Source: Eretmocerus hayati (Eukaryota; Arthropoda; Insecta; Hymenoptera; Aphelinidae). From it: a stretch of 64,000 nt of DNA. Shown one piece after another: positions 7,693 to 51,902 of this stretch. The notes under the pieces were generated by a model. The model was not told where the DNA came from, searched no databases, and saw only the letters and a program-made list of their open reading frames with translations. The stretch covers positions 59,793,797 through 59,857,796 of the forward strand of contig CM056744.1 in the NCBI GenBank assembly GCA_029851415.1. Direction: 5' to 3'. The first letter of the stretch is position 1. Each line of letters opens with the position of its first letter. The translations under genes were made by a program, and so were the position numbers.

Positions 7693-7729
<37 letters not shown>

Positions 7730-29181: not shown

Positions 29182-29583
29182 TGTTGAGCGCAATGCTCTT
29201 GAGCAATCGGATAATTTACGTGGAAGCGATTTATTGCGGGTTCGGGAAAACGAAATTATAACTCACTGTTATCAATTAAAACACTGCACTTTAATCACTG
29301 AAGAAATGTGAGAACACGTGTGAAAAGATGAAGTCGCGAGGTCGCGGCACTGGGAGGAATTATAAAGTGAATTCAAATAATGGCGAAAACGGGTGCGACA
29401 AAGACATCGGCACCGGCGCGAGGCGCGAAATGTGGTGACTGCGCGAGCTGGATGAGCTGCGGCCAGCTCGGCGATCCAGCGCTAAGTGCCGGAGCACACG
29501 GGATAACGGCGCAAAGAGAGCATCGAGACGTTGGCTTCTCGAATCTTCGAACAGTTGAACTATATATATATATATATATATAT
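29182..29583 (-). repeat. BEL/Pao 5' LTR, inner part
   Basis: Matches 19763-20160 of the 3' LTR with about a dozen mismatches. It breaks off in the TA run (29563-29583). The rest of this LTR is found 22 kb away at 51766-51902. Confidence 0.88.
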
Positions 29584-30430
29584 AAACACTTAGCTCCAAA
29601 TTCTGGGACGCCGATACGGTGTCATAAAATCGGGGACGTCAACATATATATTTTCCCAAATTCTGGGACTTTTCCAAAAACGCGTGAAAATGAAAATTTT
29701 GGGTTGAAAGTATTCTTTTATTCAAACACTAAACCATCCCTCGTGGGAGATAACCGCCGAGGAGATAACAGACGTGTGCTTAGAAAGTGGTTTTTTTCAA
29801 AATATCACGAAATTTTCACGCGTCCCAGAAAATGGCAAAATATATTATTCGCTGCGTCCCAGAATTTATGAATCTAGAAGGACGCCTTCTGGGACGTCCC
29901 AGAATTTAGAACGTCATTTCAGCGATATTTTGTCAAATTCTGGGACGCGTTCTAAATTCTGGGACGTCCCAGAAGGCGTCCTTCTAGATTCATAAATTCT
30001 GGGACGCGGCGAATGATATATTTTGCCATTTTCTGGGACGCGTGAAAATTTCGTGATATTTTGAAAAAATCACTTTTTAAGCAAAATTCTATTATCTCCT
30101 CGGCGGTTATCTCCCACGAGGGATGGTTAGTGTTTTGAACGCAAAACGAAGTCTAAGCACACGTTTGTTATCTCCTCGGTGGTTATCTCCCACGAGGGAT
30201 GGTTAGTGTTTTGAACGCAAAACGAGGTCTAAGCACACGTCTGTTATCTCCTCGGCGGTTATCTCCCACGAGGGATGGTTTAGTGTTTGAATAAAAAAAT
30301 ACTTTCAACCCAAAATTTTCATTTTCACGCGTTTTTGGAAAAGTCCCAGAATTTGGGAAAATATATATGTTGACGTCCCAGATTTCATGAATCCGTATCG
30401 GCATCCCAGAATTTGGAGCTAAGTGTGTTT
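29584..30430. mobile_element. 847-bp foldback element with TTCTGGGACG motifs
   Basis: Ends read AAACACTTAGCTCCAAATTC on the left and the reverse complement AAACACACTTAGCTCCAAAT on the right, flanked by TA repeats. The arms meet near 29935 in a dense palindrome of TTCTGGGACGTCCCAGAA. The right arm is longer because of a 76-bp tandem triplication. No coding capacity was seen; the open frame at 29380-29871 only joins LTR and arm sequence. Its termini are related to those of the 21.3-kb element that follows. Confidence 0.88.
30092..30320. repeat. 76-bp tandem triplication
   Basis: Three copies starting at 30092, 30168 and 30244, each beginning TTATCTCCTCGG and containing 'cccacgagggatgg' and 'ctaagcacacgt'. 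The left arm of the same palindrome has one copy (about 29740-29780), so the triplication arose after the palindrome formed. Confidence 0.88.
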
Positions 30431-30453
30431 ATATATATATATATATATATATA

Positions 30454-30960
30454 TTTGTATAGCTTCAGATTCTGGGATGCAAAATATACGTCATATATAT
30501 TCATATTCCGGGACGCATAATTTGTTCCTTATAAAATTCTCGGCCTCGAAAATATTTCTGAAAAGTCCCGGAATTTGAAAAACGATACCTGTGGGGAGTC
30601 CCAGTATATAAGAAAGTTTCACGCATTGGATGGCCAAAATTCACATCACTTTCTCGGCCTTTTTATTTATTTTTTTATACTTTCCGGGACGTCCCAGTAA
30701 TTGAGAAAATGTTGCAAAACACGGCCCAGAACTTATAGAAGATTAATGAACGGATTCCCAATGCTGTCTTCAGAAATTTTTAGAATTTCTGGGATTTTCT
30801 TCTTGTTTATTTCCATTTTCTGGGACGTCCCAGAATTTGGGATAACATGAAGAAAAGTCTCAGAATGCGAATAGTAGATCTTGAAATGGGTTCTCAATGC
30901 TGCCTGTAATATTTGATCTCCCAGATGGTTGCAGCGATAATGATTATTCGGGTCGCTCAT
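30454..30960 (+). repeat. Left terminal/subterminal region of giant element
   Basis: Repeated variants of CTGGGACG / CGTCCCAG, for example near 30470, 30508, 30565, 30685, 30820. The first ~30 bp match the inverted right end. Beyond that, similarity with the right end is at the level of the repeated motif only. Confidence 0.7.
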
Positions 30961-31360
30961 CAGGATACCCATTTGACCTATTCCGCACCAACCCGCACGA
31001 AACTGAAATCAACATATCTAGAAACAACTCCAAATTCAGGAAGTGTTTGCGATGACAAATCAGCCTGACTATGAATTGTTTAATTTATCTAATTCAAATA
31101 TAAGAACCAGGTGGATATTGCACTCAACTGAATAATTTATTATTAGAAAATAAACCGCCCCCTGATGAACATAAACTCTCATAACAATTAACATGAATGT
31201 ACAGTAATGACCAGAAAATACATCATTATATAATAATCAAGAATACTCTTAGTAACGTAATGATTAGAAAATCAATCTTACAATTTCATCAATTATCTCC
31301 CAATGATGCATTCAGTCTCGAGGACTTCCTACAAACTCCTCTCCTCAGACTCGATTTGAC
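30961..31360. other. No gene recognised
   Basis: AT-rich unique DNA with no repeat or coding signal, between the subterminal repeats and the exon-like fragment. Confidence 0.4.
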
Positions 31361-31747
31361 TTAGAATGCGCTTCTAAACTCAGCTTTCTTTGATGAGGCC
31401 TGATCCTTCGGCTTAACATAACGAGACCGGGTCTTAGTTCCCTTTACATTTATCAATTTTTTCGAAATTATCATCTCTTGAACGTGCTTTCCCTTCGAAA
31501 TATCTCTCAACTTCAACTTTGATTCCTTGGGTTTAGCACTTTCAACTTTCCAGGTTCCGGGCGTCAGAGCGGAGTGAGAGCATGGTGGAATCTATTCACA
31601 CTCCGAGCAGGACAAACGGTTAAGATGTAAAATATCTGGGGTTTCATTCGTCCACAGTAACTGAAAAATGTTCTGGGAATTTGGAGCCAATTCAATTCCA
31701 GGATCGATCGTCTTGCTAATAGCAGTGATGTCATCAGTAATAAAATA
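31361..31747 (-). pseudogene. Exon-like coding fragment, function unknown
   Basis: On the minus strand a frame of 129 codons ends at TAA 31361-31363. It starts directly after a good splice acceptor (CTTTGCAG at 31748-31755). The first half reads 'IDPGIELAPNSQNIFQLLW' and 'LSCSECE', followed by one in-frame TAG (31592-31594), then 'PPCSHSA' and a Lys/Ser-rich basic tail ending in 'KKAEFRSAF'. The Cys pairs suggest a small zinc-binding knuckle and the basic tail suggests nucleic-acid contact. The stop makes it a pseudogene unless the TAG region is spliced out. Not recognised as any named family. It could be a last exon captured by the element. Confidence 0.4.
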
Positions 31748-31864
31748 CTGCAAAGTTCATGGTTTTTTGCGCACAAGTAGAGAAGTTGTGATCGGAGAGG
31801 AAATTTTTTTCAAACAAAAAATGTTGCATCTGACATAGTCCACGTGATTTATGCGATAGATTAA

Positions 31865-34800
31865 CTCCCTATATGGATTCTTGGACCTATCCCGCGTCTC
31901 GGTCACGAACCTCAAGCATTAGCCTCACCTACTGTTCCATTTGGTTGTGAAGTTTCTACTCCGACTTGTGATGTCGCCGTCGCGTTCTTCTCATTGGAGA
32001 GAAGATCACAGGAGAGGATATAAGTCGACACGGACGATTCGACGGTCATTTGTGCTACTTTCGGGATACAAGGGAACTCCTTCATCGCCGTAACAACGAA
32101 CTAGCTGATACTCCGAGGCAGTACAAAGCTCGATGTGGAATGAATGAGGTAACAAATGCCAGATGTGCAGGCGTCATTAAGCCGTAAAACCCATATAAGA
32201 GGAATTCACGAAATAGAATGAAAGTCGACACGAATGATTCAAAGCTCATCTGCGTGGAAGGAGACATATGGAGGTATCTCCACATCGGTGACAAAACGAA
32301 CTTCGCAGACCTCGGGACTGTACAAGGCTGATCGGGAAACGATCGGAGTAGCGAGGTTGAAAGATGAGACCCTTCTTGAACTCCCTATATGGATTCTTGG
32401 ACCTATTCCGCGTCTCGGTCCGAACCGCAAGCATTAGCCTCACCTACTGTTCCATTTGGTTGTGAAGTTTCTACTCCGACATGTGGTGTCACCGTCGCGT
32501 TCTTCTCATAGGAGAGAAGATCACAGGAGAGGATATAAGTCGACACGGACGATTCGACGGTCATTTTTGGTACTTTTGGGATACAAGGGAACTCCTTCAT
32601 CGCCGAAACAACGAACTAGCCGATACTCCGAGGCAGTACAATGCTCGATGTGGAATGAATGAGGTAACAAATGCCAGATGTGCAGGCGTCATTAAGCCGT
32701 AAAACCCATATTAGAGGAATTCACGAAATAGAATGAAAGTCGACACGAATGATTCGAAGCTCATCTGCGTGAAAGGAGACATATGGAGGTATCTCCACAT
32801 CGGTGACAGAACGAACTTCTCAGACCCCGGGACTGTACAAGGGTGATTGTGAAACGGACGGAGTAATGGGAATGAAAAATGTGAGTATTCTAGTACTCCC
32901 TATATAGATTCTTGGACCTATCTCTCGTCTCAGTGACGAGATTCAAGCATTAGCCTCACTTACTGTTCCATTCAGTCGTTATTCCCTACTCCAGCATGAG
33001 GTGTCATCGGTGGAATCCGCTGACAGTGGGAAAAATGACCTAAGAAGGAACCAACCGATACGGACGATCCGATGGTCGTCTGCGTTGCTGGAGGGATACA
33101 AGGAGACTTCTGTTTTGGGGTTTACAAGAATCTGGTACAGTACGGAGCTGAATAGGAAACGAAGGAGGCAACTGGACGACAGATGTGGCGGCATCATTGA
33201 ATCGTATAACCCATATTAGAGGAGTTCCCGAAACAAGATACAAGCCGGCACGAACGACTCGGTGCTTTTCTGTGGTCGAGAAGACACACAGGGGTCCATG
33301 CAGATCGGTGACAGAATGGACTTGGCAGAGCTCCAGGGGGTTCAAGGCTCATTGCAGAATGGACCGGGTGACGGAAACGGGAGATGTGAGTCTTCTTGGA
33401 CTTCTCATATGGGTTATGGGCATATATCTCGCCTCGTACACGAACTTCGAGCATTAGCCTCACTTACTGTTCCATTCAGTTGTTAAGTTCCTACTCCGAC
33501 ATGTGGTGTCACCGTCGCGTTCCCCTCATAGGAGGGAAGATCACAGGAGAAGATAAAATTTGACAGGAATGATTTCATGGTCATCTGCGGTACTTTCGGG
33601 ATACAAGGGGACTTCTTCATCGCGGAAACCTGAACTAGCCGAGATTCCGAGGCAGTACAGAGCTTGATGCGGAATGAAGGAGGTAACAAAATGCTGGATG
33701 TGCAGACGTCATTAACCCGTATAACCAATATCAGAGTAGTTCGCGAAGAGAGATGAAAGTCGACATGAATGATTCGAAGCTCGTCTGCGGTAGAGAAGAC
33801 ATACGGAGGTTTCTCTACATCGGTGACAGGAAGGCCTCCGCAGACCCCGGGACTGTACAGAGCTTATTGTGAAACGAACAGAGTAACGAGTATGAGAGAT
33901 GTGAGTCTTTTTGTACTCCCTATATAGATTTTTTGACCTACCTCTCGAAGCATTAGCCTCACTTACTGTTCCATTTGGTTGTTGAGTTTCGACTTCGTTA
34001 TGTGGTCTCACCGTCGCGCTCCACTCATAAGAGAGGAGATCACAGGAGCGGATACAAGTCGACACGAGCGATTCGATGGTCACTGCAGATGAATCGGGTT
34101 ACGAAAACGGGAGATGTGAGTCTTCTTTGACTTTTCATACGGGTTTCACGGGCCTATATCTCTCCTCGGTCACGAACTTCGAGCATCAGCCTCACTTACT
34201 GTTCCATTCAGTTGTTAAGTCCCTCCTCCAGCATGAGGTGTCATCGGTGGAATCCACTGACAGTAGGAAAAATGACCGAAGAAGAAACCAACCGACACGA
34301 ACGATCCGATGGTCGTCTGCGGTGCTGGAGGGATACGGGGAGACTTCTATTTTGGGGTTTACAAGAATCCGGTACAGTACGGAGCTAAATAGGAAATGAA
34401 TGAGGCAACTGAACGACAGATGTGGCGACATCGTTGAATCGTATAACCCATATGAGAGAAGTTCCGGTAACAAGATACAAGCCGGCACGAACGACTCGGT
34501 GCTTTTCTGTGGTCGAGTACACACACAGGGGTCCATGCAGATCGGTGATAGAATGGAATTGGCAGAGCTCCAGGGGGTTCAAGGCTCATTGCAGATTGGA
34601 CCGGGTGACGGAAACGGAAGATGTGAGTCTTCTTGGACTTCTTATATGGGTTATGGGCATATATCTCATCTAGGTCACGAACTTCGAGCATTAGCCTGAC
34701 TTACTGTTCCATTCAGTTGTGAAGTTCCTACTCCGACATATGGTGTCACCGTCGCGTTCCCCTCATAGGGGGGAAGATGACAGGAGAGGATGAAAGTCGA

Positions 34801-37800
34801 CAGGAACGATTTCATGGTCATCTGCGGTACTTTCAGGATACAAGGGGACTTCTTCATAGCCTAAACTTGAAATAGCCGAGATTCCGAGGTAGTACAGAGC
34901 TTGATGTGGAATGAAGGAGGTAACAGAATGCTGGATGTGCAGACGTCATTAAGCCGTATAACCGATATCAGAGTAGTTCGCAAAGAGAGATGAAAGTCGA
35001 CATGAATGATTCGAGGCTCATCTGTGGTAGAGAAGACATACGGAAGTATCTCCACATCGGTGACAGGAAGACCTCCGCAGACCCCGGGACTGTACAGAGC
35101 TTATTGTGAAACGAACAGAGTAACGAGAATGAGAGATGTGAGTCTTTTTGTGATCCCTATATAGATTTTTTTGACCTATCTCTCGTCTCAGTCATGAACT
35201 TCAAGCATTAGCCTCACTTACTGTTCCATTTGGTTGTTGAGTTCCGACTTCGTTATGTGGTCTCACCGTTGCGCTCCACTCATGGGAGAGGAAATCACAG
35301 AAGCGGATATAATTCGACACCAGTGATTCGATGGTCATCTGCGGTACTTTCGGGATACAAGGGAACTTCTTCATCGCCGAAACCTGAACTAGCCGAGGAT
35401 TTGGGGCTGTACAAAGCTTGATGTGAAATGAAGGAGGTAACAGAATGCTGGATAAGCAGGCGTCATTGAGCCGTATAACCAATATCAGAGTAGTTCGCAA
35501 AGAGAGATGAAAGTCGACACGAATGATCCGAAGCTCATCTGCGATAAAGAAGACATACGGAGGTATCTCCACATCGGTGACAGAAAGACCTCCGCAGACC
35601 CCGGGACTGTACAGAGCTTATCGTGAAACGAACAGAGTAACGAGAATGAGAGATGTGAGTCTTTCTGTATTCCCTATATAGATTTTTTTGACCTATCTCT
35701 CGTCTCAGTCATGAACTTCAAGCATTAGCCTCACTTACTGTTCCATTTGGTTGTTGAGTTCCGACTTCGTTATGTGGTCTCACCGTTGCGCTCCACTCAT
35801 GGGAGAGGAAATCACAGAAGCGGATATAATTCGACACCAGTGATTCGATGGTCATCTGCGGTACTTTCGGGATACAAGGGAACTTCTTCATCGCCGAAAC
35901 CTGAACTAGCCGAGGATTTGGGGCTGTACAAAGCTTGATGTGAAATGAAGGAGGTAACAGAATGCTGGATAAGCAGGCGTCATTGAGCCGTATAACCAAT
36001 ATCAGAGTAGTTCGCAAAGAGAGATGAAAGTCGACACGAATGATCCGAAGCTCATCTGCGATAAAGAAGACATACGGAGGTATCTCCACATCGGTGACAG
36101 GAAGACCTCCGCAGATCCCGGGACTGTACAGAGCTTATTGTGAAACGAACGGAGTAACGAGAATGAGAGATGTGAGTTCTTTTGTACTCCCTATATAGAT
36201 TTTTTGACCTATCTCTCGTCTCAGTAATGAGCTTCAAGCATTAGCCTCACTTACTGTTCCATTCGGTTGTTGAGTTCCGACTTCGTTATGTGGTCTCACC
36301 GTCGCGCTCTACTCATAGGAGAGGAGATCAACGGAGCGGATATAAAGCGACACTAGCGATTCGATGGTCATCTGCGGTACTTTTGGGATACAAGGGAACT
36401 TCTTCATCGCCGAAACCTGAACTAGCCGAGGATTTGGGGCTGTACAAAGCTTGATGTGAAATGAAGGAGGTAACAGAATGCTGGATGTGCAGACGTCATT
36501 AAGCCGTATAACCGATATCAGAGTAGTTCGCAAAGAGAGATGAAAGTCGACATGAATGATTCGAGGCTCATCTGTGGTAGAGAAGACATACGGAAGTATC
36601 TCCACATCGGTGACAGGAAGACCTCCGCAGACCCCGGGACTGTACAGAGCTTATTGTGAAACGAACAGAGTAACGAGAATGAGAGATGTGAGTCTTTTTG
36701 TACTCCCTATATAGATTTTTTTGACCTATCTCTCGTCTCAGTCATGAACTTCAAGCATTAGCCTCACTTACTGTTCCATTTGGTTGTTGAGTTCCGACTC
36801 CGTTATGTGGTCTCACTGTTGCGCTCCACTCATGGGAGAGGAAATCACAGAAGCGGATATAATTCGACACGAGTGATTCGATGGTCATCTGCGGTACTTT
36901 CGGGATACAAGGGAACTTCTTCATCGCCGAAACCTGAACTAGCCGAGGGTTTGGGGCTGTACAAAGCTTGATGTGAAATGAAGGAGGTAACAGAATGCTG
37001 GATGTGCATGCGTCATCAAGCCGTAAAACCCATATTAGAGGAATTCACGAAATAGAATGAAAGTCGACACGAATGATTCGAAGCTCATCTGCGTGAAAGG
37101 AGACATATGGAGGTATCTCCACATCGGTGACAGAACGAACTTCTCAGACCCCGGGACTGTACAACGGTGATTGTGAAACGAACGGACTAACGGGAATGAA
37201 AAAGGTGAGTCTTCTAGTACTCCCTATATAGATTCTTGGACCTATCTCTCGTCTCAGTGACGAGATTCAAGCATTAGCCTCACTCACTGTTCCATTTAGT
37301 CGTTATTTCCTACTCCAGCGAGAGGTATCATCGGTGGAATCCACTGACAGTAGGAAAAATGACCGAAGAAGAAACCAACCGACACGAACGATCCAATGGT
37401 CGTCTGCGGTGCTGGAGGGATACGGGGAGACTTTTATCTTGGTGTTTACAAGAATCCGGTACAGTACGGAGCTAAATAGGGAACGAATCAGGCAACTGAA
37501 CGACAGATGTGGCGCCATCATTGAATCGTATAACCCATATGAGAGAAGTTCCCGAAACAAGATACAAGCCGGCACGAACGACTCGGTGCTCTTCTGTGGT
37601 CGAGAAGACACACAGGGGTCCATGCAGATCGGTGATAGAAGGGACTTGGCAGAGCTCCAGGGGGTTCAAGGCTCATTGCAGATTGGACCGGGTGACGGGA
37701 ACGGGAGATGTGAGTCTTCTTGGACTTCTTATATGGGTTATGGGCATATATCTCGCCTAGGTCACGAACTTCGAGCATTAGCCTCACTTACTGTTCCATT

Positions 37801-40800
37801 CAGTTGTTAAGTTCCTACTCCGACATGTGGTGTCACCGTCGCGTTTCCCTCATAGGAGGGAAGATCACAGTAGAGGATAAAAGTCGACAGGAACGATTTC
37901 ATGGTCATCTGCGGTACTTTCGGGATACAAGGGGACTTCTTCATCGCCGAAACCTGAACTAGCCGAGATTCCGAGGCAGTACAGAGCTTGATGTGGAATG
38001 AAGGAGGTAACAGAATGCTGGATGTGCAGACGTCATTGAGCCGTATAACAAATATCAGAGTAGTTCGCAAAGAGAGATGAAAGTCGACATGAATGATTCG
38101 AGGCTCATCTGAGGTAGAAATGACATACGGAGGTATCTCCACATCGGTGACAGGAAGACCTCCGCAGACCCCGGGACTGTACGGAGCTGATTGTGAAACG
38201 AACAGAGTAACGAGAATGAGAGATGTGAGTCTCCTTGTACTCCCTATATAGATATTTTGACCTATCTCTCGTCTCAGCCATGAACTTCAAGCATTAGCCC
38301 CACTCACTGTTCCATTTGATTGTCGAGTTTCGACTTCGTTATGTGGAGTCACCGTCGCGGTCCACTAATAGGAGAGGAGATCACAGAAGCGGATATATGT
38401 CGATACGAACGATTCGACGGTCATTTGTGGTACTTTCGGGATACAAGGGAACTTCTTCATCGCCTAAACAACGAACTAGCCGAGACTCCGAGGCAATACA
38501 AAGCTCGATGGATGAGGTAACAAATGCCAGATGTGCACGCCACATAAAGCCGTAAAACCATAATTAGAGGAATTCACGAAATAGAATGAAAGTCGACACG
38601 AATGATTCGAAGCTCATCTGCGTGAAAGGAGACATATGGAGGTATCTCCACATCGGTGACAGAATGAACTTCTCAGACCCCGGGACTGTACAAGGGTTAC
38701 TGTGAAACGAACGGAGTAACGGGAATGAAAAATGTGAGTTTTCTAGTACTCCCTATATAGATTCTTGGACCTATCTCTCGTCTCAGTGACGAGATTCAAG
38801 CATTAGCCTAACTTACTGTTCCATTTGGTTGTTGAGTTTCGACTTCGTTATGTGGTGTCACCGTCGCGCTCCCATCATAGGAGAGGAGATCAAAGAAGCG
38901 GATATATGTCGACACGAATGATTCGATGGTCATCTGCGGTACTTTTGGGATACAAGGGAACTCCTCCATCGCCGACAGAACGAACAAGCCAAGAAATTGG
39001 GCTGTACAAAGCTTGATGAGAAATGAATCAGGGAACAGGATGCCAGATGTGCAGGTGTCATTAAGGTGTCTAACCAATATCAGAGAAGTTCACGAAAAGA
39101 GATGAAGGTCGACAAAAATGATGCGAAGCTCATCTGCGGTTCAGGAGACATACGGAGGCATCTCCACATTGGTGACAGAAAGGACTTCGCAGACCTCGGG
39201 ACTGTACAAGGCTGATCGGAAAACGAACGGAGTAGCGAGGTTGAAAGATGTGACCCTTCTTGAACTCCCTATATGGATTCTTGGACCTATCCCGCGTCTC
39301 GGTCACGAACCTCAAGCATTAGCCTCACTTACTGTTCCATTTGGTTGTGAAGTTTCTACTCCGACATGTGGTGTCACCGTCGCGTTCTTCTCATAGGAGA
39401 GAAGATCACAGGAGAGGATATAAGTCGACACGGACGATTCGGAGGTCATTTGTGGTACTTTCGGGATACAAGGGAACTCCTTCATCGCCGAAACAACGAA
39501 CTAGCTGATACTCCGAGGCAGTACAAAGCTCGATGTGGAATGAATGAGGTAACAAATGCCAGATGTGCAGGCGTCATGAAGCCGTAAAACCCATATTAGA
39601 GGAATTCACTAAATAGGATGAAAGTCAACACGAATGATTCGAAGCTCATCTGCGTGAAAGGAGACATACGGAGGTATCTCCACATCGGTGACAGGAAGAC
39701 CTCCGCAGACCCCGGGACTGTACAGAGCTTATTGTGAAACGAACGGAGTAACGAGAATGAGAGATGTGAGTTCTTTTGTACTCCCTATATAGATTTTTTG
39801 ACCTATCTCTCGTCTCAGTAATGAGCTTCAAGCATTAGCCTCACTTACTGTTCCATTCGGTTGTTGAGTTCCGACTTCGTTATGTGGTCTCACCGTCGCG
39901 CTCTACTCATAGGAGAGGAGATCAACGGAGCGGATATAAGTCGACACTAGCGACTCGATGGTCATCTGCAGTACTTTCGGGATACAAGGGAACTTCTTCA
40001 TCGCCGAAACCTGAACTAGCCGAGGATTTGGGGCTGTACAAAGCTTGATTCGAAATGAAGGAGGTAACAGAATGCTGGATGTGCATGCGTCATTGAGCCA
40101 TATAACCAATATCAGAGTAGTTCGCAAAGAGAGATGAAAGTCGACACGAATGATCCGAAGCTCATCCGCGATAAAGAAGACATACGGAGGTATCTCCACA
40201 TCGGTGACAGAAAGACCTCCGCAGACCCCGGGACTGTACAGAGCTTATTGTGAAACGAACAGAGTAACGAGGATGAGAGATGTGAGTCTTTCTGTATTCC
40301 CTATATAGATTCTTTGACCTATCTCTCGTCTCAGTCATAAACTTCAAGCATTAGCCTCACTTACTGTTCCATTTGGTTGTTGAGTTCCGACTTCGTTATG
40401 TGGTCTCACCGTCGCGCTCCACTCATAGGAGAGGAGATCACAGAAGCGGATATGAGTCGACACGGGCGATTCGATGGTCATCTGCGGTACTTTTGGGATA
40501 CAAGGGAACTTCTTCATCGCCGAAACCTGAACTAGCCGAGGATTTGGGGCTGTACAAAGCTTGATTCGAAATGAAGGAGGTAACAGAATGCTGGATGTGC
40601 ATGCGTCATTGAGCCATATAACCAATATCAGAGTAGTTCGCAAAGAGAGATGAAAGTCGACACGAATGATCCGAAGCTCATCCGCGATAAAGAAGACATA
40701 CGGAGGTATCTCCACATCGGTGACAGAAAGACCTCCGCAGACCCCGGGACTGTACAGAGCTTATTGTGAAACGAACAGAGTAACGAGGATGAGAGATGTG

Positions 40801-43800
40801 AGTCTTTCTGTATTCCCTATATAGATTCTTTGACCTATCTCTCGTCTCAGTCATAAACTTCAAGCATTAGCCTCACTTACTGTTCCATTTGGTTGTTGAG
40901 TTCCGACTTCGTTATGTGGTCTCACCGTCGCGCTCCACTCATAGGAGAGGAGATCACAGAAGCGGATATGAGTCGACACGGGCGATTCGATGGTCATCTG
41001 CGGTACTTTTGGGATACAAGGGAACTTCTTCATCGCCGAAACCTGAACTAGCCGAGGATTTGGGGCTGTACAAAGCTTGATGTGAAATGAAGGAGGTAAC
41101 GGAATGCTGGATGTGCAGACGTCATTAAGCCGTATAACCGATATCAGAGTAGTTCGCAAAGAGAGATGAAAGTCGACATGAATGATTCGGGGCTCATCTG
41201 TGGTAGAGAAGACATACGGAAGTATCTCCACATCGGTGACAGGAAGACCTCCGCAGACCCCGGGACTGTACAGAGCTTATTGTGAAACGAACAGAGTAAC
41301 GAGAATGAGAGATGTGAGTCTTTTTATACTCCCTATATAGATTTTTTTGACCTATCTCTCGTCTCAGTCATGAACTTCAAGCATTAGCCTCACTTACTGT
41401 TCCATTTGGTTCTTGAGTTCCGACTTCGTTATGTGGTCTCACCGTTGCGCTCCACTCATGGGAGAGGAAATCACAGAAGCGGATATAATTCGACACGAGT
41501 GATTCGATGGTCATCTGCGGTACTTTCGGGATACAAGGGAACTTCTCCATCGCCGAAACCTGAACTAGCCGAGGGTTTGGGGCTGTACAAAGCTTGATGT
41601 GAAATAAAGGAGGTAACAGAATGCTGGATGTGCATGCGTCATCAAGCCGTAAAACCCATATTAGAGGAATTCACGAAATAGAATGAAAGTCGACACGAAT
41701 GATTCGAAGCTCATCTGCGTGAAAGGAGACATATGGAGGTATCTCCACATCGGTGACAGAACGAACTTCTCAGACCCCGGGACTGTACAACGGTGATTGT
41801 GAAACGAACGGACTAACGGGAATGAAAAATGTGAGTCTTCTAGTACTCCCTATATAGATTCTTGGACCTATCTCTCGTCTCAGTGATGAGATTCAAGCAT
41901 TAGCCTCACTCACTGTTCCATTTAGTCGTTATTTCCTACTCCAGCGAGAGGTATCATCGGTGGAATCCACTGACAGTAGGAAAAATGACCGGAGAAGAAA
42001 CCAACCGACACGAACGATCCGATGGTCGTCTGCGGTGCTGGAGGGATACGGGGAGACTTTCATTTTGGGGTTTACAAGAATCCGGTACAGTACGGAGCTA
42101 AATAGGGAACGAATCAGGCAACTGAACGACAGATGTGGCGCCATCATTGAATCGTATAACCCATATGAGAGAAGTTCCCGAAACGAGATACAAGCCGGCA
42201 CGAACGACTCGGTGCTCTTCTGTGGTCGAGAAGACACACAGGGGTCCATGCAGATCGGTGATAGAAGGGACTTGGCAGAGCTCCAGGGGGTTCAAGGCTC
42301 ATTGCAGATTGGACCGGGTGACGGGAACGGGAGATGTGAGTCTTCTTGGACTTCTTATATGGGTTATGGGCATATATCTCGCCTAGGTCACGAACTTCGA
42401 GCATTAGCCTCACTTACTGTTCCATTCAGTTGTTAAGTTCCTACTCCGACATGTGGTGTCACCGTCGCGTTTCCCTCATAGGAGGGAAGATCACAGGAGA
42501 GGATAAAAGTCGACAGGAACGATTTCATGGTCATCTGCGGTACTTTCGGGATACAAGGGAACTCCGTCATCGCCTAAACCACGAACTAGCCGAGACTCCG
42601 AGGCAATACAAAGCTCGATGAATGAGGTAACAAATGCCAGATGTGCACGCCACATAAAGCCGTAAAACCCATATTAGAGGAATTCACGAAATAGAATGGA
42701 AGTCGTCACGAATGATTCGAAGCTCATCTGCGTGAAAGGAGACATATGGAGGTATCTCCACATCGGTGACAGAACGAACTTCTCAGACCCCGGGACTGTA
42801 CAAGGGTTATTGTGAAACGAACGGAGTAACGGGAATGAAAAATGTGAGTTTTCTAGTACTCCCTATATAGATTCTTGGACCTATCTCTCGTCTCAGTGAC
42901 AAGATTCAAGCATTAGCCTAACTTACTGTTCCATTTGGTTGTTGAGTTTCGACTTCGTTATGTGGTGTCACCGTCGCGCTCCCATCATAGGAGAGGACAT
43001 CAAAGAAGCGGATATATGTCGACACGAATGATTCGATGGTCATCTGCGGTACTTTTGGGATACAAGGGAACTCCTCCATCGCCGACAGAACGAACAAGCC
43101 AAGAAATTGGGCTGTACAAAGCTTGATGAGAAATGAATCAGGGAACAGGATGCCAGATGTGCAGGTGTCATTAAGGTGTCTAACCAATATCAGAGAAGTT
43201 CACGAAAAGAGATGAAGGTCGACACGAATGATGCGAAGCTCATCTGCGGTTCAGGAGACATACGGAGGCATCTCCACATTGGTGACAGAAAGGACTTCGC
43301 AGACCTCGGGACTGTACAAGGCTGATCGGAAAACGAACGGAGTAGCGAGGTTGAAAGATGTGACCCTTCTTGAACTCCCTATATGGATTCTTGGACCTAT
43401 CCCGCGTCTCGGTCACGAACCTCAAGCATTAGCCTCACTTACTGTTCCATTTGGTTGTGAAGTTTCTACTCCGACATGTGGTGTCACCGTCGCGTTCTTC
43501 TAGGAGAGAAGATCACAGGAGAGGATATAAGTCGACACAGACGATTCGGAGGTCATTTGTGGTACTTTCGGGATACAAGGGAACTCCTTCATCGCCGAAA
43601 CAACGAACTAGCTGATACTCCGAGGCAGTACAAAGCTCGATGTGGAATGATTGAGGTAACAAATGCCAGATGTGCAGGCGTCATGAAGCCGTAAAACCCA
43701 TATTAGAGGAATTCACGAAATAGGATGAAAGTCAACACGAATGATTCGAAGCTCATCTGCGTGAAAGGAGACATGCGGAGGTATCTCCACATCGGTGACA

Positions 43801-45826
43801 GGAAGACCTCCGAAGACCCCGGGACTGTACAGAGCTTATTGTGAAACGAACGGAGTAACGAGAATGAGAGATGTGAGTTCTTTTGTACTCCCTATATAGA
43901 TTTTTTGACCTATCTCTCGTCTCAGTAATGAGCTTCAAGCATTAGCCTCACTTACTGTTCCATTCGGTTGTTGAGTTCCGACTTCGTTATGTGGTCTCAC
44001 CGTCGCGCTCTACTCATAGGAGAGGAGATCAACGGAGCGGATATAAGTCGACACGAGCGATTCGATGGTCATCTGCGGTACTTTTGGGATACAAGGGAAC
44101 TTCTTCATCGCCGAAACCTGAACTAGCCGAGGATTTGGGGCTGTACAAAGCTTGATGTGAAATGAAGGAGGTAACAGAATGCTGGATAAGCAGGCGTCAT
44201 TGAGCCGTATAACCAATATCAGAGTAGTTCGCAAAGAGAGATGAAAGTCGACACGAATGATCCGAAGCTCATCTGCGGTAAAGAAGAGATACGGAGGTAT
44301 CTCCACATCGGTGACAGAAAGACCTTCGCACACCCCGGGACTGTACAGGGCTGATTGTGAAACGAACAGAGTAACGAGAATAAGAGATGTGAGTCTTCTT
44401 GTACTCCCTATATAGATTCTTGGACCTATCCCGCGTCTCGGTCACGAACCTCAAGCATTAGCCTCACTTACTGTTCCATTCAGTTCTTAGGTTCCTACTC
44501 CGACATGTGAAGTCACTGTCGCGTTCCCCTCGTGGAAGGGAAGATCACAGGAGGGGTTACAAGTGGACAGGAACGATTTCATGGTCATCTCCGGTACTTT
44601 CGGCATATAAGGGAACTCCTCCATCGCCGACACAACGAACAAGCCGAGAAATTGGGCTGTACAAAGCTTAATTTGAAATGAATGAGGGAACAGAATGCCA
44701 GATGTGCAGGTGTCATTGAGGTGTATAACCAATATCAGAGAAGTTCACAAGAAGAGATGAACGTCCACACGAATGATTCGAAGCTCATCTGTGGTAAACA
44801 AGCCGTACTGAGGTATCTCCACATCTGTGGAAGAAAGACCTTTGCAGACCCCGGGACTGTACAGGGCTGATTGTGCAACGAACAGAGTAACGAGACTGGA
44901 AGTTGTGAGTCTTCCCGTACTCCCGATATAGATTCTTGGACCTATCTCTCGTCTCAGCCACGAACTTCAAGCGTTAGCCTCACTCACTGTTCCATATGTT
45001 CGTTATTCCCTACTCCAGCATAAGGTGTCATTGGGTTAATCCTCTGACAGTAGGAAAAATGTCCGAAGAAGAAACCAACCGACACGAACGATCCCATGGT
45101 TATCGGCGGTGCTGGAGGCATACAGGAGGACTCCCATTCTGGGGTTCACAAGAATCCGGTACAGTACGGAGCTTCATAGGGAACAAATAAAGTAACGGAA
45201 CGACAGATGTGGCGGGGTCATTGAATCGTATACCCCATATGAGACAAGTTCCCGAAACAAGATACAAGCTGACACGAATGACTCGGTGCTCTCCTGTGGT
45301 CGAGGAAACACACAGGGGTCCTTGCACATCCGTGACAAAACGGACTTCGCAGAGCTCCAGGGGGTACAAGGCTCATTGCAGATTGAACCGGGTCACGAAA
45401 ACGGGAGATAAGAGTCTTTTTTGACTTCTTATACGGGTTATGCGGGCCTATATCTCTCCTCGGTCACGAACTTCGAGCATCAGCCTCACTTACTGTTCCA
45501 TTCAGTTGTTAAGTCTCTACTCCGACATATCGTGTCACCGTCGCGTTTCCCTCATAGGGGAAAGATCACAGAAGAGGATTCAAGTCGACACGAACGATTG
45601 GATGATCATCTGCGGTATTTTTGGAATACAAGGGAACTTCTTCATCGCCGAAACAACGAACTAGCCGAGACTCCGAGGCAGTACAAACATCGATGTGGAA
45701 TGAACGAGGTAATAGAATGCCAGATGTGCAGGCGTCATCAAGCCGTATAACCCATATCAGAGGTGTTCACAAAAAAAATGAAAGTCGACACGATCGATTC
45801 GAAGCTCATTAGCGTCAAAGAAGACA
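31865..45826 (+). repeat. 14-kb satellite with ~516-bp dimeric unit
   Basis: Two related ~258-bp monomers alternate. Both carry 'AGTCGACACGAATGATTCG', 'TCATCTGCGGTA', 'GGGACTGTACA' and 'CAAGCATTAGCCTCACTTAC'-like segments, but one continues 'TCGGGATACAAGGGAACT' and the other 'AAGACATACGGAGGTATC'. The dimer repeats every 514-517 bp (compare 35201 with 35718, and 40344 with 40860). Some dimers are much more diverged (for example 34250-34700, 37330-37800, 41960-42430). Longer blocks repeat with offsets of 4,626 bp (37303 vs 41929) and 4,110 bp (38808 vs 42918), differing by exactly one dimer. Open frames of 60-158 codons recur at these periods and are artefacts. Confidence 0.95.
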
Positions 45827-47183
45827 TTTGTGGTATAAAAATACTCACCTTGAAAGAAGGTAATACCTGTCCCCTCGGAAATCTCTTACTTTTTTCCAGT
45901 TTTCCCACGCTCGGAATTCGACGAGAAGACGAATTCGAGTTAGATGATAATAAGTACTTGTCCTCTCGTTGTTCAGCCCAAATCGCAAGAGAATCGTATA
46001 AAAGTGCGAATATTTCTCAGCGTGCGCGGTGACAGCATCGCCTTCCCTGCTGGAAATAATTTCGTGGGACCTAGCCCTGGGAAAATTGTTAATCTTGATA
46101 TTCGCGAAATTTGGCTTCGGAGACGTGCAACATACAAATTTCGACCATTACTCCTCCGAAAATGATCGAATTTGGTCAAAATTTGTAGGCTGCATATTGA
46201 ATTATTTTCAGCAGGGTTAAATATAATCTTCCCGAATCCGAGGTGCGGAAATTAAATTTCGTTTTATAGAACATAAAATAACTTTGTTTGAGACTCTTTA
46301 ACGTCAAAAAGATGCTGAGGACATCACTGCTTCATGTTTCTCTATTAGAGGTAGTTATCTTGATCTTGATAAGAAGAAATGATTGTACTAATTGTAAGTG
46401 GAAAAATATTGATTTCTCAAAAAGTCCAGTTGTAATAGACTATCTGCTAGTCATGCTTGCCACTCTGAATCAATTGAATTGTGTTTGAAACTTGACTTCC
46501 AGTGTAACTAACAGTGATTGGAGACCTAATTTTGCAGCTGAGAAATGAAAGGTTTCCAGGCATTGTTCGCCAACAGCAGTTTGAACATATAGTACAGGCT
46601 ATCTATTTTCTTAGACCTGTATTATGAGCAGTAATAATGGAAATACTGATATCATTTGCCTCAAGATATTATATTTTATTCAATAAAAATGATTCATCTC
46701 TTCTGATCAGAATAAATCACATTCATACTATCGGTAGCACTAACAATGAGTCCAGTAAACCAGTTACGAACATTTCATAAATTATCCTTTGAAATAATCA
46801 TTTTTCTTACCTAAGAGCGCACAATTCCAATAGTAATAGTGCTTTGTTTCATATCTGATGAAGATAAGATTCAGAATATGATGAGAGTACCTAAATTTCA
46901 TTTCAACATTTATTCATTATATGCACGAATAAGGTCATGAATTGATTACATATTCATTAACAATCAAAAGACTCAACAAGTATGTTAATGATGATTCAAA
47001 TGTTTTTCTTGAAAGAAAGACCCATCAAAAGGGTTCATGGTTAAATAGGATCATCATTCAACGTATCTCACTGCAGAAATGACAGAGAACTTCAGAAAAT
47101 CATTTTCTAGTTAACAACACATGAGCATAGGTACATTGTCAATCATAGATGCAAACACAGTATGGAGTATCTAAAGTCAAACA
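45827..47183. other. No gene recognised
   Basis: AT-rich unique DNA after the satellite. Short open frames (for example 45944-46165, 46288-46488) show no domain. It is inside the giant TIR element. Confidence 0.4.
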
Positions 47184-48511
47184 TTAAATATGATCATGGT
47201 AACCCATAGCAAAGTGGAGGGGGGTTTTGCCCTCATCATTGACTGCAGATACTGAGGCTCCGTTCTCTATGAGTATGTTCGCAATTGCAGTGGCCTTCAT
47301 TCCAGGATTAATCGAAAGATGAAGAGGGGTGTTCCCACCTTCAGTGACTGACAATACTGATGCACCATTTTCTATAAGGAACTTCACAATCTCATAGTTT
47401 GAGTCATTATCGTCATAGATGATTGCAAGGTGCAGCGGGGTTGGACCCTCGTCATCTCCATCCATAAGTGAGTCGACATCTGCACCACTGCATACCAGAT
47501 CTTTTGCTAATTCAATATTTCCAAAAATGACAGCTATATCAAAGAGACTGAGTCCATCTGGAGCAACAAAATTTTCTAACACTGACGGGCGTGCACCAAG
47601 GCTCATGGGACCTCTAAGACTTGACAAGGCTGGACCTACTGGATCCAATGACAAGTGGAGAGGAGTGTATCCTCTGCTGTCTCTGGCGAACATGTCTGCT
47701 CCCAATTTGATCAAAATCTCTATCAGCTCTGAATTATATTGAAGTTCCACAGCAAAATGCAGTGGAGTAAAATGATGGAAATTGGAGCCAGGCTTGATGA
47801 TTTTCTTGTTTATGTCGATTTTATGGTTGGAAACAAGGCCTCTTATCTTGGTTGCACAGTCATCACTTTTGAGGAGATGTAATCTAGTGAATCCAAAGTC
47901 GTTGAATTCAGAGTCCTTGTGGATTAGATGACATGACAAAATGTCACGCGTTATATCTATGAATATCTCAGCGCGGCTGGCTTGAGCCACTGCCAGAGCT
48001 ATATCGGATGCAGTATAGTTCAATTTATCTTTGAGAGAATAAGTGGCTCCATGACTGACTATAGTAAAGAGATATTGTTGACCCTCCCAAATGCTGCAGC
48101 AAAGTGAAGTGTGGAAAATCCAGGCCAGAGTTCAGAGTCAAGATTGGTAACTTTGTTCACATTTTCTCCAATATCAATAAAGTGTTTGATAGAATTGATT
48201 CCGATATCTCCTGAACAAGTGCATGCAATATGAAAATATGACGAACCATTGCAGTCGATTGGGTTGGCTCGATTATAAAGATAATGTGACATCATTATAT
48301 CAACATCAACAACACACATTAGGTTATTTTCAAGAGCATAATGAAGAGGTGTTTGACCACGATCATTCTGTAATGTGTAAACAGCTCCCCCCTGCACAAG
48401 TTGCAGTGCAATTGGAATATCTCGTTGTTTCACTGCCACATACAGCAATGAGTCTCTCAGCCTAGTTTCAGGAGGATGGATTGCCTGACTTTGGTCTTTG
48501 TCCTCTGCCAT
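47184..48511 (-). pseudogene. Ankyrin-repeat protein, one frameshift
   Basis: Two frames, 48511-48059 (first ATG at 48511) and 48056-47184, join into one ~440-residue protein if a single frameshift near 48056 is allowed. After the shift the sequence 'SHGATYSLKDK' continues a repeat, so the break is a small indel, not an intron. Repeat signatures: 'RGQTPLHYALE', 'GFSTLHFAAAFG', 'HFTPLHFAVE', 'RGYTPLHLSLD', 'GLSLFDIAVIFGN', 'GPTPLHLAII', 'GNTPLHLSIN', 'GKTPLHFAMG', with '(V/I)LIENGASV'-type second helices: about nine repeats. No other domain, signal peptide or membrane segment. Ankyrin repeats bind other proteins, and the partner cannot be inferred. A single lesion indicates recent loss or an assembly error. 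Confidence 0.82.
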
Positions 48512-48873
48512 CACTATGAAATTCAATGGATAGTACGGATATTAGTGATTTTTTCAAGATGGAAATTGTTTACACCCAATATCCTAGATCTTTCCCTTAA
48601 CGAATTGACTCTGATTTACCCGATATTATTCAGTACTCGTGAAACAATATTAGGAAGAAAACCAATGTATGTCAAATTGACATAGGGAGGGTAGAGAGAA
48701 ATTGACAGTATGAACTACGTGAATATTTGACTTAAATGTGCTATATGGGAAAAGGTTTAAGGAGTAGACTGTAGCGCCACTGGTGGCGCCCGTGCACCGC
48801 CATATTGGCAGAGTTGGGGAAATCGTTCCACACCAGAGACACGGGTGTGTGGCTTGGAGTGAGCAGACCTTTC
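48512..48873. other. Upstream flank of ankyrin gene, no gene recognised
   Basis: Contains the 5' flank of the minus-strand ankyrin gene. No TATA box or initiator could be assigned with confidence. The + frame at 48476-48685 is not supported. Confidence 0.4.
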
Positions 48874-48982
48874 TTTTATAGCCGCCGCGGCTTTAATGGA
48901 GCACATTGCGGCCATCTACGTGGCCTTGACGGCCGCGTAGATCGCCCGCAATGGGCTACATTGAAGCCGGGCGACTATAAAA
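48874..48982. repeat. 109-bp GC-rich hairpin
   Basis: TTTTATAGCCGCC at 48874 pairs with GGGCGACTATAAAA ending at 48982. The inner arms 'tctacgtggcc' / 'ggccgcgtaga' continue the pairing almost to the centre. No loop of note, a few mismatches, both tips AT-rich (TTTTATA). Confidence 0.75.
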
Positions 48983-49127
48983 ACGCGTATGCACTTCGTT
49001 GCGTAATCTAGTATTATGACCGTATTCTCAATTCAAGCGGAGCCCGATGATCGTCACTTCGACCGTATACTCAAGGTAATGAGTAGAGACCCTATGAGTA
49101 GAGACCCTAGGGTCTCTAGTGATGAGC

Positions 49128-49812
49128 TTTAGTTACGCCGTGGACACTAGGGAAAAAAAAGTCCGAGGAAAAATCTGAAAAAATTCGCCCTAAGTAAGTC
49201 GCATCTTGTCAACCTAATGCCGTTGTCGAAAATGTTTGCTCACCCTGCAATATAAATAAACATTCGAGTTATACCACCTAGTATTGCCCATTTCTCTGCA
49301 TAGAAAACCGATACGAGGACAAAAACATTTGCTCATCGTTGCTTTTACCTCACTTGTATTTGCTCAGCCCTCAGAATTGGATGAATCATCATCAATTCTG
49401 AATAAACAATCAAAAACACTTTTTCCAACCCCTAGTACTGTACAAAGCGCAGTGCGCATGTGCCCCGCATGCCATATGCGCACTGCGCATTGTACAGTAC
49501 TTGGGGTTGGAAAGTGTTTTTGATTGTTTATTCGAAATTGATGATGATTCATCCAATTCTGAGGGCTGAGCAAATACAAGTGAGGTAAAAGCAACGATGA
49601 GCAAATGTTTTTGTCCTCGTATCAGTTTTCTATACGGAGAAATGGGCAATACTAGGTGGTATAACTCGAATGTTTATTTATAAAAAATTGGAGGGTGAGC
49701 AAACATCTTTTACAACCGCATTAGGTTGACAAAATGCGGTTTACTTGGGGCAAATTTTTTCAGATTTTTCCTCGGACTTTTTTTCCCCCAGTTTCCACGG
49801 GGTAAAGCTTAA
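49128..49812. mobile_element. ~685-bp foldback element
   Basis: The left arm (49128-49460) and right arm (49470-49812) are near-perfect reverse complements, for example 'agtccgaggaaaaatctgaa' on the left against 'ttcagatttttcctcggact' on the right. The centre is near 49465 with almost no loop and is rich in GCGCA/TGCGC. No coding potential. The open frames at 49284 + and 49410/49364 - are mirror images of each other. Confidence 0.88.
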
Positions 49813-50173
49813 GGTTTATTCGATTATCCAGTTCGGGGCGCACTGGGGCGCTCCAGAGCGCTCTGGAGCGCCCCAGTGCGACCCAAATCGAACGAACGTT
49901 CGGACAGTTCACACCAGTGCGCTCTGGGTCGCCTCAGAAATATTTCAAGCTGTTCCTATGGTTATGCATGTGTGATAGGTGGCGCTCCGACAGATTCTTC
50001 ACCTCAGCATACACGCATAACCATAGGAACGGCTTGAAATATTTCGGAGCCGCCCCAGAGCGCACTGGTGCGAACTGTCCGAACGTTCGTTCGATTTGGG
50101 TCGCACTGGGGCGCTCCAGAGCGCTCTGGAGCGCCCCAGTGCGCCCCGAACTGCATAATCGAATAAACCTTTT
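49813..50173. mobile_element. ~360-bp CG-rich foldback with nested palindromes
   Basis: It abuts the preceding foldback. Arms start at 'aaggtttattcgattat' and end at 'ataatcgaataaacctt'. Each arm contains a perfect self-complementary block GGGGCGCTCCAGAGC/GCTCTGGAGCGCCCC (about 49844-49873 and 50108-50137). Each arm also has CGAACGTTCG. The centre is near 49990. Confidence 0.9.
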
Positions 50174-50283
50174 GTTCGTTTCCGTTTGTGGCCATCAGTG
50201 ATCATAACATTAGATACTTAAGCTTTGGAAATAAGTAGAGACGGCGAATATCAAAGTTCAAATGTTCAAATATTCAAGTTTAA

Positions 50284-50823
50284 ATGATACGACCAGAACT
50301 AACTCGTGTGATGGAGATGTTGAAAAATGTTTGCTTCCGGGGCGAGGAGATTAATGCAACCATCAGGTTGTACATCGAGAGTCGTTATCGGTACTTCAGG
50401 TTTGATACTGTCATAGACATGTACATGTACTTAGCACAAGATGCGAAAGCTCTTCGCAAATTGCTTCATGGTATAAGATCTAGGACTGCAATCGAAACCA
50501 TGGAGATAGGAATGAAAATGGAAAATTTCGATGTATTCACTTGTGCATACAAAGCTTGTGTTGAGACAGGCAAGAACGGAATCATGCTCCACATGCTCCA
50601 TCAGTATACCATAATTATCAGAAGATTGATTCATATCCTCAGAAATCAGTACATGAGAATAGAGGATCAAAGAGCGATGCGGAACTTGGAAATTTTCAAA
50701 GATCAATTTTTGTATATGAATTCTCATCTAGTTGGTCTAATTTCTTCTGATCCATGTGGAATCAATTGTCATTTTAATAATTCACTCTTTCTACTTACAG
50801 GCAAACCCTTGAAGAGATGCTGA
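50284..50823 (+). CDS. Unknown 179-residue protein
   Basis: Intact frame from ATG 50284 to TGA. The sequence is predicted by eye to be mostly helical: amphipathic stretches 'NATIRLYIESRYRY', 'TVIDMYMYLAQDAKALRKLL', 'LHMLHQYTIIIRRLIHIL', and a Cys-containing C-terminus. No signal peptide, membrane segment or known motif was recognised. It lies inside the giant TIR element 0.5 kb from the right subterminal repeats. A second frame at 50884-51120 (78 codons) follows on the same strand and might be a downstream exon. Codon content looks like real coding more than random AT-rich DNA, but no homologue can be named. Confidence 0.45.
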   Translation: MIRPELTRVMEMLKNVCFRGEEINATIRLYIESRYRYFRFDTVIDMYMYLAQDAKALRKLLHGIRSRTAIETMEIGMKMENFDVFTCAYKACVETGKNGIMLHMLHQYTIIIRRLIHILRNQYMRIEDQRAMRNLEIFKDQFLYMNSHLVGLISSDPCGINCHFNNSLFLLTGKPLKRC

Positions 50824-51354
50824 AATATTTTTAAAATTGAATCATGCCTTGCTCTGATAATTTTCTCATTTGTTGAATATTTTTTGATACTAAATATGAT
50901 CATCAGTGGCGAAGGCAATTCCCTTTCTTATCCAATCGTAGCGATTAATCTTAGCATGTTTCATCCCTGCAGCACCCAAGACTGCCCATACCAAAATCCT
51001 GAGCTTGAGAAACCCAGTTCATCAAATCTGGAGTCAATGCAGAAGTTGCATGATTCAAAATTGAAATATCTATTGATTCAATCAGTGATTTCTATCATTG
51101 TTTGTGAAATTTGCATTTAGTCCTCTCCAGGATTTGGTGAAGGGCTTGTCAGGAGATTTTCATTAGTTGGAGCTCTTGTTGATCCTGAGGTTACTCACTG
51201 AGTTCTATGAAATTCAAAAAAGGAGAAATATTGAAATATCAACAATCTTGGGAATCATTGTTAAAAATTGGCTCCAGATGGACAAAAACAGGTTAAATGA
51301 AACCAAATTCATAGATCATAAATCGCTGACCTAGGATCCATATTTGAGAATGAG
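50824..51354. other. No confident gene; one short ORF
   Basis: A 78-codon frame at 50884-51120 on + ('HPCSTQDCPYQNPELEKPSS' in its centre) lacks a recognisable domain. The rest is AT-rich unique DNA leading into the right subterminal repeats. Confidence 0.35.
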
Positions 51355-51760
51355 TGGAAAGAAATATAGCGTCCCAGAAATTGGAAATATATATGAAAAA
51401 AATCCAGGAACGCTTTATATATGATATATGACTGATACTTCCATTTTCTGGGATATATATTTGAGAGAAATATATAATCCCGGAAATAGAGAATATATAT
51501 TAAAAAAGGCCGAGAACGCTCGAAATATTATATTTAACCATATATTGCCAAATTCTGGGACGAAATATATATATTTAAGAAATATATTTTCGTATATTTA
51601 TTTCGTCCCGGAAATTGAGAATATAGCAAATATTTTCAAATACTGGGACGTCCTGGAAAATGATAATATTCAAGGAAGTCTTCTGGGACGTCCCGGAAAT
51701 TAGAAAAAATCCCAGAAATTGGAAAAGTATCGCACGAAATATCCCGGAATCTGAAGCTAT

Positions 51761-51765
<5 letters not shown>
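51355..51765 (-). repeat. Right terminal/subterminal region of giant element
   Basis: Variants of TTCTGGGACG / CGTCCCGGAA repeat at short spacing, for example near 51370, 51450, 51555, 51645 and 51685. The last ~28 bp are the inverted copy of the left end at 30454. Confidence 0.72.
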
Positions 51766-51798
<33 letters not shown>

Positions 51799-51902
51799 GG
51801 ACATCAGGTGATGTCCACCAGAGCTCTGTCTCTATCACTCTCGATGCCTCGATATTCGTGCGACTCAGGCCTGTGATATACAGATATATACAGAATTGAA
51901 CA
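51766..51902 (-). repeat. BEL/Pao 5' LTR, outer part
   Basis: TA run followed by the hairpin GTGGACATCAGG-TGATGTCCAC and LTR sequence to TG(TTCAATTC) at 51902. It matches 20161-20267 of the 3' LTR with about three differences. It supplies exactly the portion missing from the LTR copy at 29182-29583. Confidence 0.88.

Follow-up and report, generated by a model that had tools for sequence, protein, structure and literature searches.

What does a 21-kb block of DNA with exact inverted ends, most of it a satellite, represent in an insect chromosome? The stretch analysed here (the window, 64,000 nucleotides, C4:59793797-59857796 of the parasitoid wasp Eretmocerus hayati) holds such a segment at positions 30454-51765 (plus strand, 21,312 bp), with an ankyrin-repeat segment and further open frames as additional cargo. 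A first, sequence-only reading had suggested that this DNA "moved, or grew" inside one pair of terminal inverted repeats (TIRs), either as a new giant element or as a small foldback expanded by satellite amplification and nested insertions. We searched the genome (692,130,109 bases in 17 contigs; published as a 692.1-Mb assembly based on PacBio HiFi and Hi-C data, PMC10482854) and, as judged by sequence comparison, a unit of 21-57 kb itself moved; growth at the window site only does not describe it, while a change of array length between copies is real. The element, called the giant below, is quite probably a non-autonomous cut-and-paste TIR transposon, which targets (TA)n and uses a transposase supplied in trans by another element.

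The ends are sharply defined. The terminus TTTGTATAGCTTCAGATTC starts at 30454 and its reverse complement ends at 51765, an exact pair as first described; the perfect TIR is 19 bp long (30454-30472 on the plus strand and 51747-51765 on the minus strand). The subterminal motifs noticed earlier at both ends were recovered as well: of 19 exact CTGGGACG sites in the window (both strands), 7 lie in the giant near both its ends, 11 in a neighbouring element, A, and 1 elsewhere. Terminal blocks with motifs of this type extend over 30454-30876 on the left and 51316-51765 on the right, both on the plus strand. Between the ends, and also on the plus strand, follow a left non-satellite part (30454-31860), the satellite array (31861-45830) and a right non-satellite part with the remaining cargo (45831-51765).

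To look for other copies bounded by the same ends, and to align them, had been proposed together with the sequence-only reading, for which it mattered whether any other locus has paired ends with internal sequence. Such loci exist. The 19-bp end, searched genome-wide with at most one mismatch, gave 38 matches versus none for the reversed pattern used as control, and 32 of them form 16 facing pairs, 20.6-57.1 kb apart. These giants are spread over four large contigs and a small one, all end exactly at the 19-bp repeats, and their flanks differ apart from shared repeats. Besides the window copy E01 (C4 59824250-59845561, 21.3 kb), they are E02 (C4 67677781-67707840, 30.1 kb), E03 (C3 111115044-111161244, 46.2 kb), E04 (C3 99308932-99365988, 57.1 kb), E05 (C3 90284603-90308819, 24.2 kb), E06 (C3 75588653-75618338, 29.7 kb), E07 (C2 108944168-108971132, 27.0 kb), E08 (C2 63582592-63610966, 28.4 kb), E09 (C2 43106054-43134921, 28.9 kb), E10 (C1 99662474-99688575, 26.1 kb), E11 (C4 31447375-31479312, 31.9 kb), E12 (C2 54734849-54756927, 22.1 kb), E13 (C7 18874-44954, 26.1 kb), E14 (C1 194340060-194360675, 20.6 kb), E15 (C1 75887398-75924455, 37.1 kb) and E16 (C2 89897488-89924377, 26.9 kb). 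A genome search with the left 301 bp found 16 loci at 98-100% and 5 further loci at 84-94%.

Six of the 38 end matches have no partner at this stringency. One of them (C2:108340678) forms, with a 91% left end, a short relative of 2.75 kb (L027), which has only about 430 bp at each end in common with the giant (91% identity in the left terminal block, 89% in the right one), its interior of 1.9 kb being different and repeat-rich; the other five are ends of diverged relatives, 87-95% alike over 0.2-0.57 kb. A widened end pattern gave 198 matches in the genome versus 21 in the control, and no further facing pair 1-10 kb apart was found among the 100 matches listed. The same 100 include six facing pairs 0.3-0.6 kb apart with TAGCTCCAAATTCTGGGA and TAACT[GA]CAGATTCTGGGA ends, a clan resembling miniature inverted-repeat transposable elements, with ends related to those of the giant.

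Five copies (E01-E05) were compared over their whole sequence. With respect to the window copy, the left 1407 bp are 99.4-99.8% identical and the right 5935 bp 99.83-99.87%; in E04 the left part is split by a nested insert of 11.8 kb, mostly made of 1.2- and 1.4-kb tandem repeats, into two pieces at 99.6 and 99.7%. Over the right 5.94 kb, two copies differ by 5-10 substitutions (0.08-0.17%); in each of the 18 substitution columns of the alignment, the change is confined to one copy. Since the right parts are near-identical and every substitution belongs to one copy, this star pattern reads as a recent burst. The 16 dispersed paired copies, the interiors 99.4-99.9% identical in five of them, and the cargo found in nearly all the others are the reason why we consider that the large unit moved, as the "new giant element" version of the sequence-only reading had it; the ankyrin segment, the 179-aa frame and the satellite are common to the five whole copies.

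The target is equally uniform. TA repeats, with 3-25 uninterrupted units, open 32 of the 32 flanks, and the bases just inside the ends are always TTTGTATAG. At the window the site lies in a retroelement, whose coding part is on the minus strand in several frames; the Pao peptidase, Integrase_H2C2 and DUF1759 domains between its long terminal repeats (LTRs) confirm the early assignment to BEL/Pao. One LTR is intact (19763-20267). The second one, on the minus strand, is in two parts, the inner one with its TA tract at 29182-29584 (29182-29579 being 96.5% identical to the intact LTR) and the outer one at 51778-51902 (95.2%), which amounts to differences of 3.5% and 4.8% and replaces the earlier estimate of about 3% for both. 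The LTR had been described as split precisely around the giant; in fact, two stacked elements interrupt it between TA tracts at 29561 and 51766, namely element A at 29585-30429, which is a foldback of 0.85 kb and has related ends (AGCTCCAAATTCTGGGACG), and the giant as element B (30454-51765), inserted in the same (TA)n site, with (TA)12 (30430-30453) separating them and (TA)13 (51766-51791) on the right. Both have AGCT.CA.ATTCTGGGA ends and CTGGGACG / GGGACGTCCC motifs. The TA tracts at the insertion are longer than in the intact LTR, and E02 sits, like E01, in an LTR of this BEL/Pao family (90-96%). Element A and the strict (TA)n targeting had both escaped the sequence-only reading, as had the shared break of the ankyrin frame and the unrecognised transposase, discussed below.

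Stacking is not peculiar to the window. Comparing neighbours over 250 bp of flank, element A being the only one read as a whole neighbour, we found that in 8 of 32 flanks, belonging to 7 of the 16 copies, the TA tract gives way to the end of another repeat or inverted repeat. Members of the element-A family, 89-91% alike, lie beside E01, E06 and E07; E03 and E11 have an A-related repeat as neighbour (88% to each other), E11 and E16 relatives of the giant's own right end (72-82%), and E08 a 2.1-kb foldback family (97%). The window member of this last family, at 5592-7701, is 95% self-complementary and has one end on a TA tract.

How would such a unit move? In the mechanism that we favour, a predicted transposase would bind the 19-bp ends together with the CTGGGACG-type motifs in the outer ~430 bp, a stretch that the short relative has kept although its interior differs; insertion would take place into TA repeats, and everything between the ends would be passenger. 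As an alternative, the element could be excised or copied as a circle and enter TA microsatellites by homologous recombination, a model proposed for the plant SaTar elements and called speculative by its own authors in their Discussion (PMC5907723). The insertion in (TA)n at 16 of 16 sites, the stacking across TA tracts, the lack of a readable target-site duplication and TA tracts exceeding those of the intact LTR in length would all suit a circle. By contrast, the exact ends in all 16 copies and the constant TTTGTATAG inside them are explained directly by an end-specific transposase, and we regard the circle route as unlikely.

A number of observations weigh against a cut-and-paste transposon mobilised in trans. 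The target-site duplication is unreadable at all 16 sites because every site is (TA)n, and among the 16 copies there is no insertion outside a microsatellite. The right flanks of E04 and E10 consist of three TA units followed by C or G, which limits a perfect duplication to at most 6 bp; this favours a duplication of 2, 4 or 6 bp over the 8-11 bp of Mutator-like elements (MULEs), unless bases have mutated. The empty-site comparison consists only of the paired LTR of the same retroelement, with no empty allele seen. No transposase was recognised, the Pfam scan covering only 6 frames of the window copy (of 34 frames of at least 100 aa overlapping 28500-52500), with ankyrin alone above the cut-off. 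The interiors of the other 11 giants were covered by samples. Finally, copy-and-paste or circle routes may account for the same copies.

As to the driver of the proposed transposon, a MULE transposase is the leading candidate, on account of the plant parallels (MuTAnT) and the abundant MULE transposases in the genome; we put it forward tentatively, at somewhat less than even confidence, since MULE membership of the giant is unproven and nothing ties a MULE to its ends. A genome search with PF10551 gave 150 scored matches of 253 candidates, and 18 MULE loci share an equal score of 60.6 bits, 16 of them with an open frame of 394 aa. This 18-locus family looks recently active in E. hayati. According to a paper on arthropod MULEs, the species is among those in which the detected MULEs are mostly complete (PMC13359780). 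As a further point against this driver, a TA tract of at least 5 units within 1.5 kb was present at 0 of the 8 MULE loci examined (of 150 scored). In a region of E04 absent from E01-E03 and E05, a broken frame of 240 aa (143 + 97 aa around one stop) has no recognised relatives; a resemblance to the C-terminal part of CACTA-type transposases was considered and abandoned, as neither Pfam nor the protein search gave support. The region belongs to the element family, because a relative at C1:113049122 matches it at 91.8% over 1.6 kb and also has the right end, at 91-93% identity over a length of about 0.2 kb. In the 14 kb examined, this relative shows no left end and no frame of at least 160 aa.

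The satellite makes up most of the window copy: 31861-45830 is an array of 14.0 kb, as estimated at first, with 27 monomers and a period of 516 bp; this exceeds the 500-bp limit of Tandem Repeats Finder, by which the array is not reported. The array has one orientation, lies between the ends, and keeps its strand in all five whole copies, which contain 27, 43, 68, 60 and 29 monomers (14.0, 22.3, 34.6, 30.6 and 14.8 kb in E01-E05). Its right border is fixed: the right non-satellite part starts at the identical base in the five copies, preceded by the same six monomer types in all and the same eight in E01-E03 and E05. The left border varies, the part before the array measuring 1.4 kb in E01 and E12, 1.8 in E15, 1.85 in E02, 3.5 in E05, 3.8 in E06 and 5.7 in E03, while E04 has about 3 kb of family sequence on the left and then other sequence. 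As E01 and E12 have one left junction and diverge only after 2.75 kb at 99.6% identity, of which 2.4 kb belong to the array, a truncated form was probably itself a parent of copies.

The arrays also differ in their internal order, with dominant repeat distances of 4626, 2580, 3078, 2064 and 8745 bp in E01-E05. Post-burst amplification as a general explanation of these copy-specific higher-order repeats was dropped: mean monomer divergence is 18%, in-register blocks within a copy are 96.6-99.3% alike, which makes them older than the 0.1% burst, and many monomers have their closest counterpart in a different copy (25 of 27 monomers in E01, 18 of 43 in E02, 41 of 68 in E03, 28 of 60 in E04 and 24 of 29 in E05; in the same copy for 2, 18, 21, 24 and 2 of them, respectively). 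We infer that most array diversity predates the burst, the copies differing mainly by blocks lost, moved or doubled, and that part of the doubling is private to single copies. The array would have been captured by the element, or have arisen inside it, and would change as parts of it are deleted or duplicated, gap repair or unequal exchange being the probable occasions. A conserved satellite 24-mer has 387 matches in the genome and none in the control; among the 100 listed, 99 are inside giants (E08, E09, E10, E12, E14, E15 and E16). The remaining one, C1:130627718, is a possible trace of the origin of the satellite. The satellite is present in 14 of the 16 giants, E01-E06, E08-E10 and E12-E16, with E07 and E11 outside this check.

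The rest of the cargo is carried by the right part. The ankyrin gene of the sequence-only reading corresponds to a segment on the minus strand (47184-48541) with two overlapping frames, 47184-48131 and 48059-48541, which match Pfam ankyrin repeats. Over 92% of its length, the first one matches the E. hayati protein QAD02_003357 at 99% identity. The frame break in the segment recurs in each of the five whole copies; QAD02_003724, a protein with 91% relatedness, continues through it. In the genome search, the 2.4-kb ankyrin segment was found in 15 of 16 giants, all except E13, and 10 of the 11 further copies have a sampled piece of it where it should be relative to their right end; E13 has satellite there. 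Outside the giants the segment matches C3:113050061-113052277 at 91% over query positions 193-2401, probably the gene of QAD02_003724. Two short pieces in C4:38466085-38466746 correspond, at 81-88%, to the initial 345 bp of the segment, which lie outside the ankyrin frame. The segment would come from a host gene with a 91% paralogue on C3. In the public protein sets the QAD02_003357 cluster has 10 member sequences, i.e. transposon cargo counted as genes, and the QAD02_003357 model leaves out the sequence on either side of the frame break, treating it like an intron. Counts of ankyrin genes may be too high in this way, a warning for the annotation of the E. hayati genome, in which transposon cargo figures as an ankyrin gene family.

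Two nested inverted-repeat units, a foldback at 49133-49805 and a second one at 49811-50171, are in all five whole copies and are followed by the 179-aa frame (50284-50823, plus strand). Listed earlier as unknown cargo, this frame has no homologue in the protein search and no Pfam family above the cut-off, and a single-sequence fold had a mean predicted local distance difference test score of 40, of no use. A sampled piece of the frame is present in 9 of 9 further copies (E11 and E14 being outside the sample). These data bear on the growth of a small foldback at the window site by satellite amplification and nested insertions. The two nested units, the variable array length and the existence of the 2.75-kb relative with the same ends speak for it. 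By contrast, the five whole copies have the nested units, the ankyrin segment and the 179-aa frame at the same positions, and nearly all sampled copies contain ankyrin and 179-aa pieces, which refutes growth in place for the window copy and makes it very improbable as an explanation, even if the founder may have originated in this way. That a segmental duplication or an assembly artefact multiplied one locus is least credible of all, for, near-identical as the copies are, they lie on four large contigs and a small one, end exactly at the 19-bp repeats between flanks that are different except for shared repeats, have no N in the five whole copies of a PacBio HiFi and Hi-C assembly (PMC10482854), and contain different arrays, and thus are not one copy pasted repeatedly.

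The window contains other repeats: an inverted repeat inside the BEL/Pao element (21079-22808, arms of about 0.67 kb, 89%), a different satellite of ~90/180 bp at 8694-17939 (nearly 7 kb of it at 11060-17939), accompanied at 8535-9133 by a related block in inverted orientation, and a ~174-bp tandem repeat of about 7 copies at 58252-59495. Nothing reached the Rfam gathering score in the window.

Taken further, the data may describe a mobile satellite, a view to which we give an even chance: the family would live almost only inside a (TA)n-targeted giant that seeds a new array at each landing, the arrays would then change in length and higher-order structure, and host-gene capture and stacking would build large repeat blocks. 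If true, it would offer a route for satellite dispersal through chromosomes, and no earlier case of an animal giant transposon that targets microsatellites would precede it. The dispersal of satellites between chromosomes and their rate of change are usually inferred from old, ill-dated arrays. Here, the burst is dated by a difference of about 0.1% (right part, five copies) while arrays span 14.0 to 34.6 kb, and every insertion tags one array at a separate site, so that array change becomes measurable against a clock. No report of this giant, or of any microsatellite-targeted giant transposon in an animal, was recognised in the open-access full texts covered, a scope with most subscription journals and preprints outside it. 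The two E. hayati genome papers (PMC10482854 is one of them), in the passages covered, make no mention of the element, and "satellite" has 0 occurrences in their main text. Its parts are known separately, TA-microsatellite targeting from plants, tandem repeats from insect foldbacks, and gene capture; the combination and the scale are not in the literature covered.

Polinton/Maverick elements have long TIRs, of hundreds of bp, and their own polymerase and integrase, and Helitrons are without terminal inverted repeats. The giant has exact inverted ends with a TIR of 19 bp, and no polymerase or integrase domain in the 6 frames scanned; defined inverted ends in 16 dispersed copies with different flanks are those of a TIR transposon. 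Very large units such as Polinton/Maverick and Teratorn are known, and Pack-MULEs resemble the giant in carrying host gene segments between TIRs and in being mobilised in trans (PMC6431247). In contrast with Pack-MULEs and giant eukaryotic transposons, the cargo here is mostly one satellite, and no transposition gene was recognised in 21-57 kb; the few very large TIR elements are joined by one of this kind, whose 57-kb copy includes the 11.8-kb nested insert. Tetris, a foldback of Drosophila virilis, is likewise a non-autonomous insect TIR element with variable internal tandem repeats, which fed a satellite; it has ~220-bp tandem repeats within its TIRs and three complete copies with target duplications of 8-9 bp, whereas the giant has a one-sided array of 14-35 kb between short TIRs (PMC4079207) and lacks the long, repeat-holding TIRs of a Tetris-type foldback. 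The SaTar elements of guayule and rice are non-autonomous TIR elements that target microsatellites and sit end to end in stacks, not nested in one another, which is also the arrangement of A and B in the window and of the neighbours found at 7 of 16 copies; SaTar elements differ in being plant elements, small, targeted to several microsatellite types, and with a MULE membership backed by autonomous elements with similar ends (PMC5907723). MuTAnT and AutoMuTAnT of Medicago differ in being plant elements of about 0.2-1.6 kb, with a putative autonomous element of 4.9 kb, a mudrA-like transposase, none being recognised in the giant, and without a satellite array; 14 of 218 MuTAnT copies outside perfect (TA)n indicate 9-nt duplications, and no such copy exists among the giants (PMC4486113). 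On the other hand, MuTAnT elements are, like the giant, TIR elements inserted mostly in (TA)n, with TA tracts that are longer where an element is present than at empty sites and a foldback shape like that of the small relatives described here (PMC4486113). With (TA)n targeting in 16 of 16 copies and stacking in 7 of 16, the giant has the habits of MuTAnT and SaTar, and stacking in TA microsatellites of the plant type is now found in an animal.

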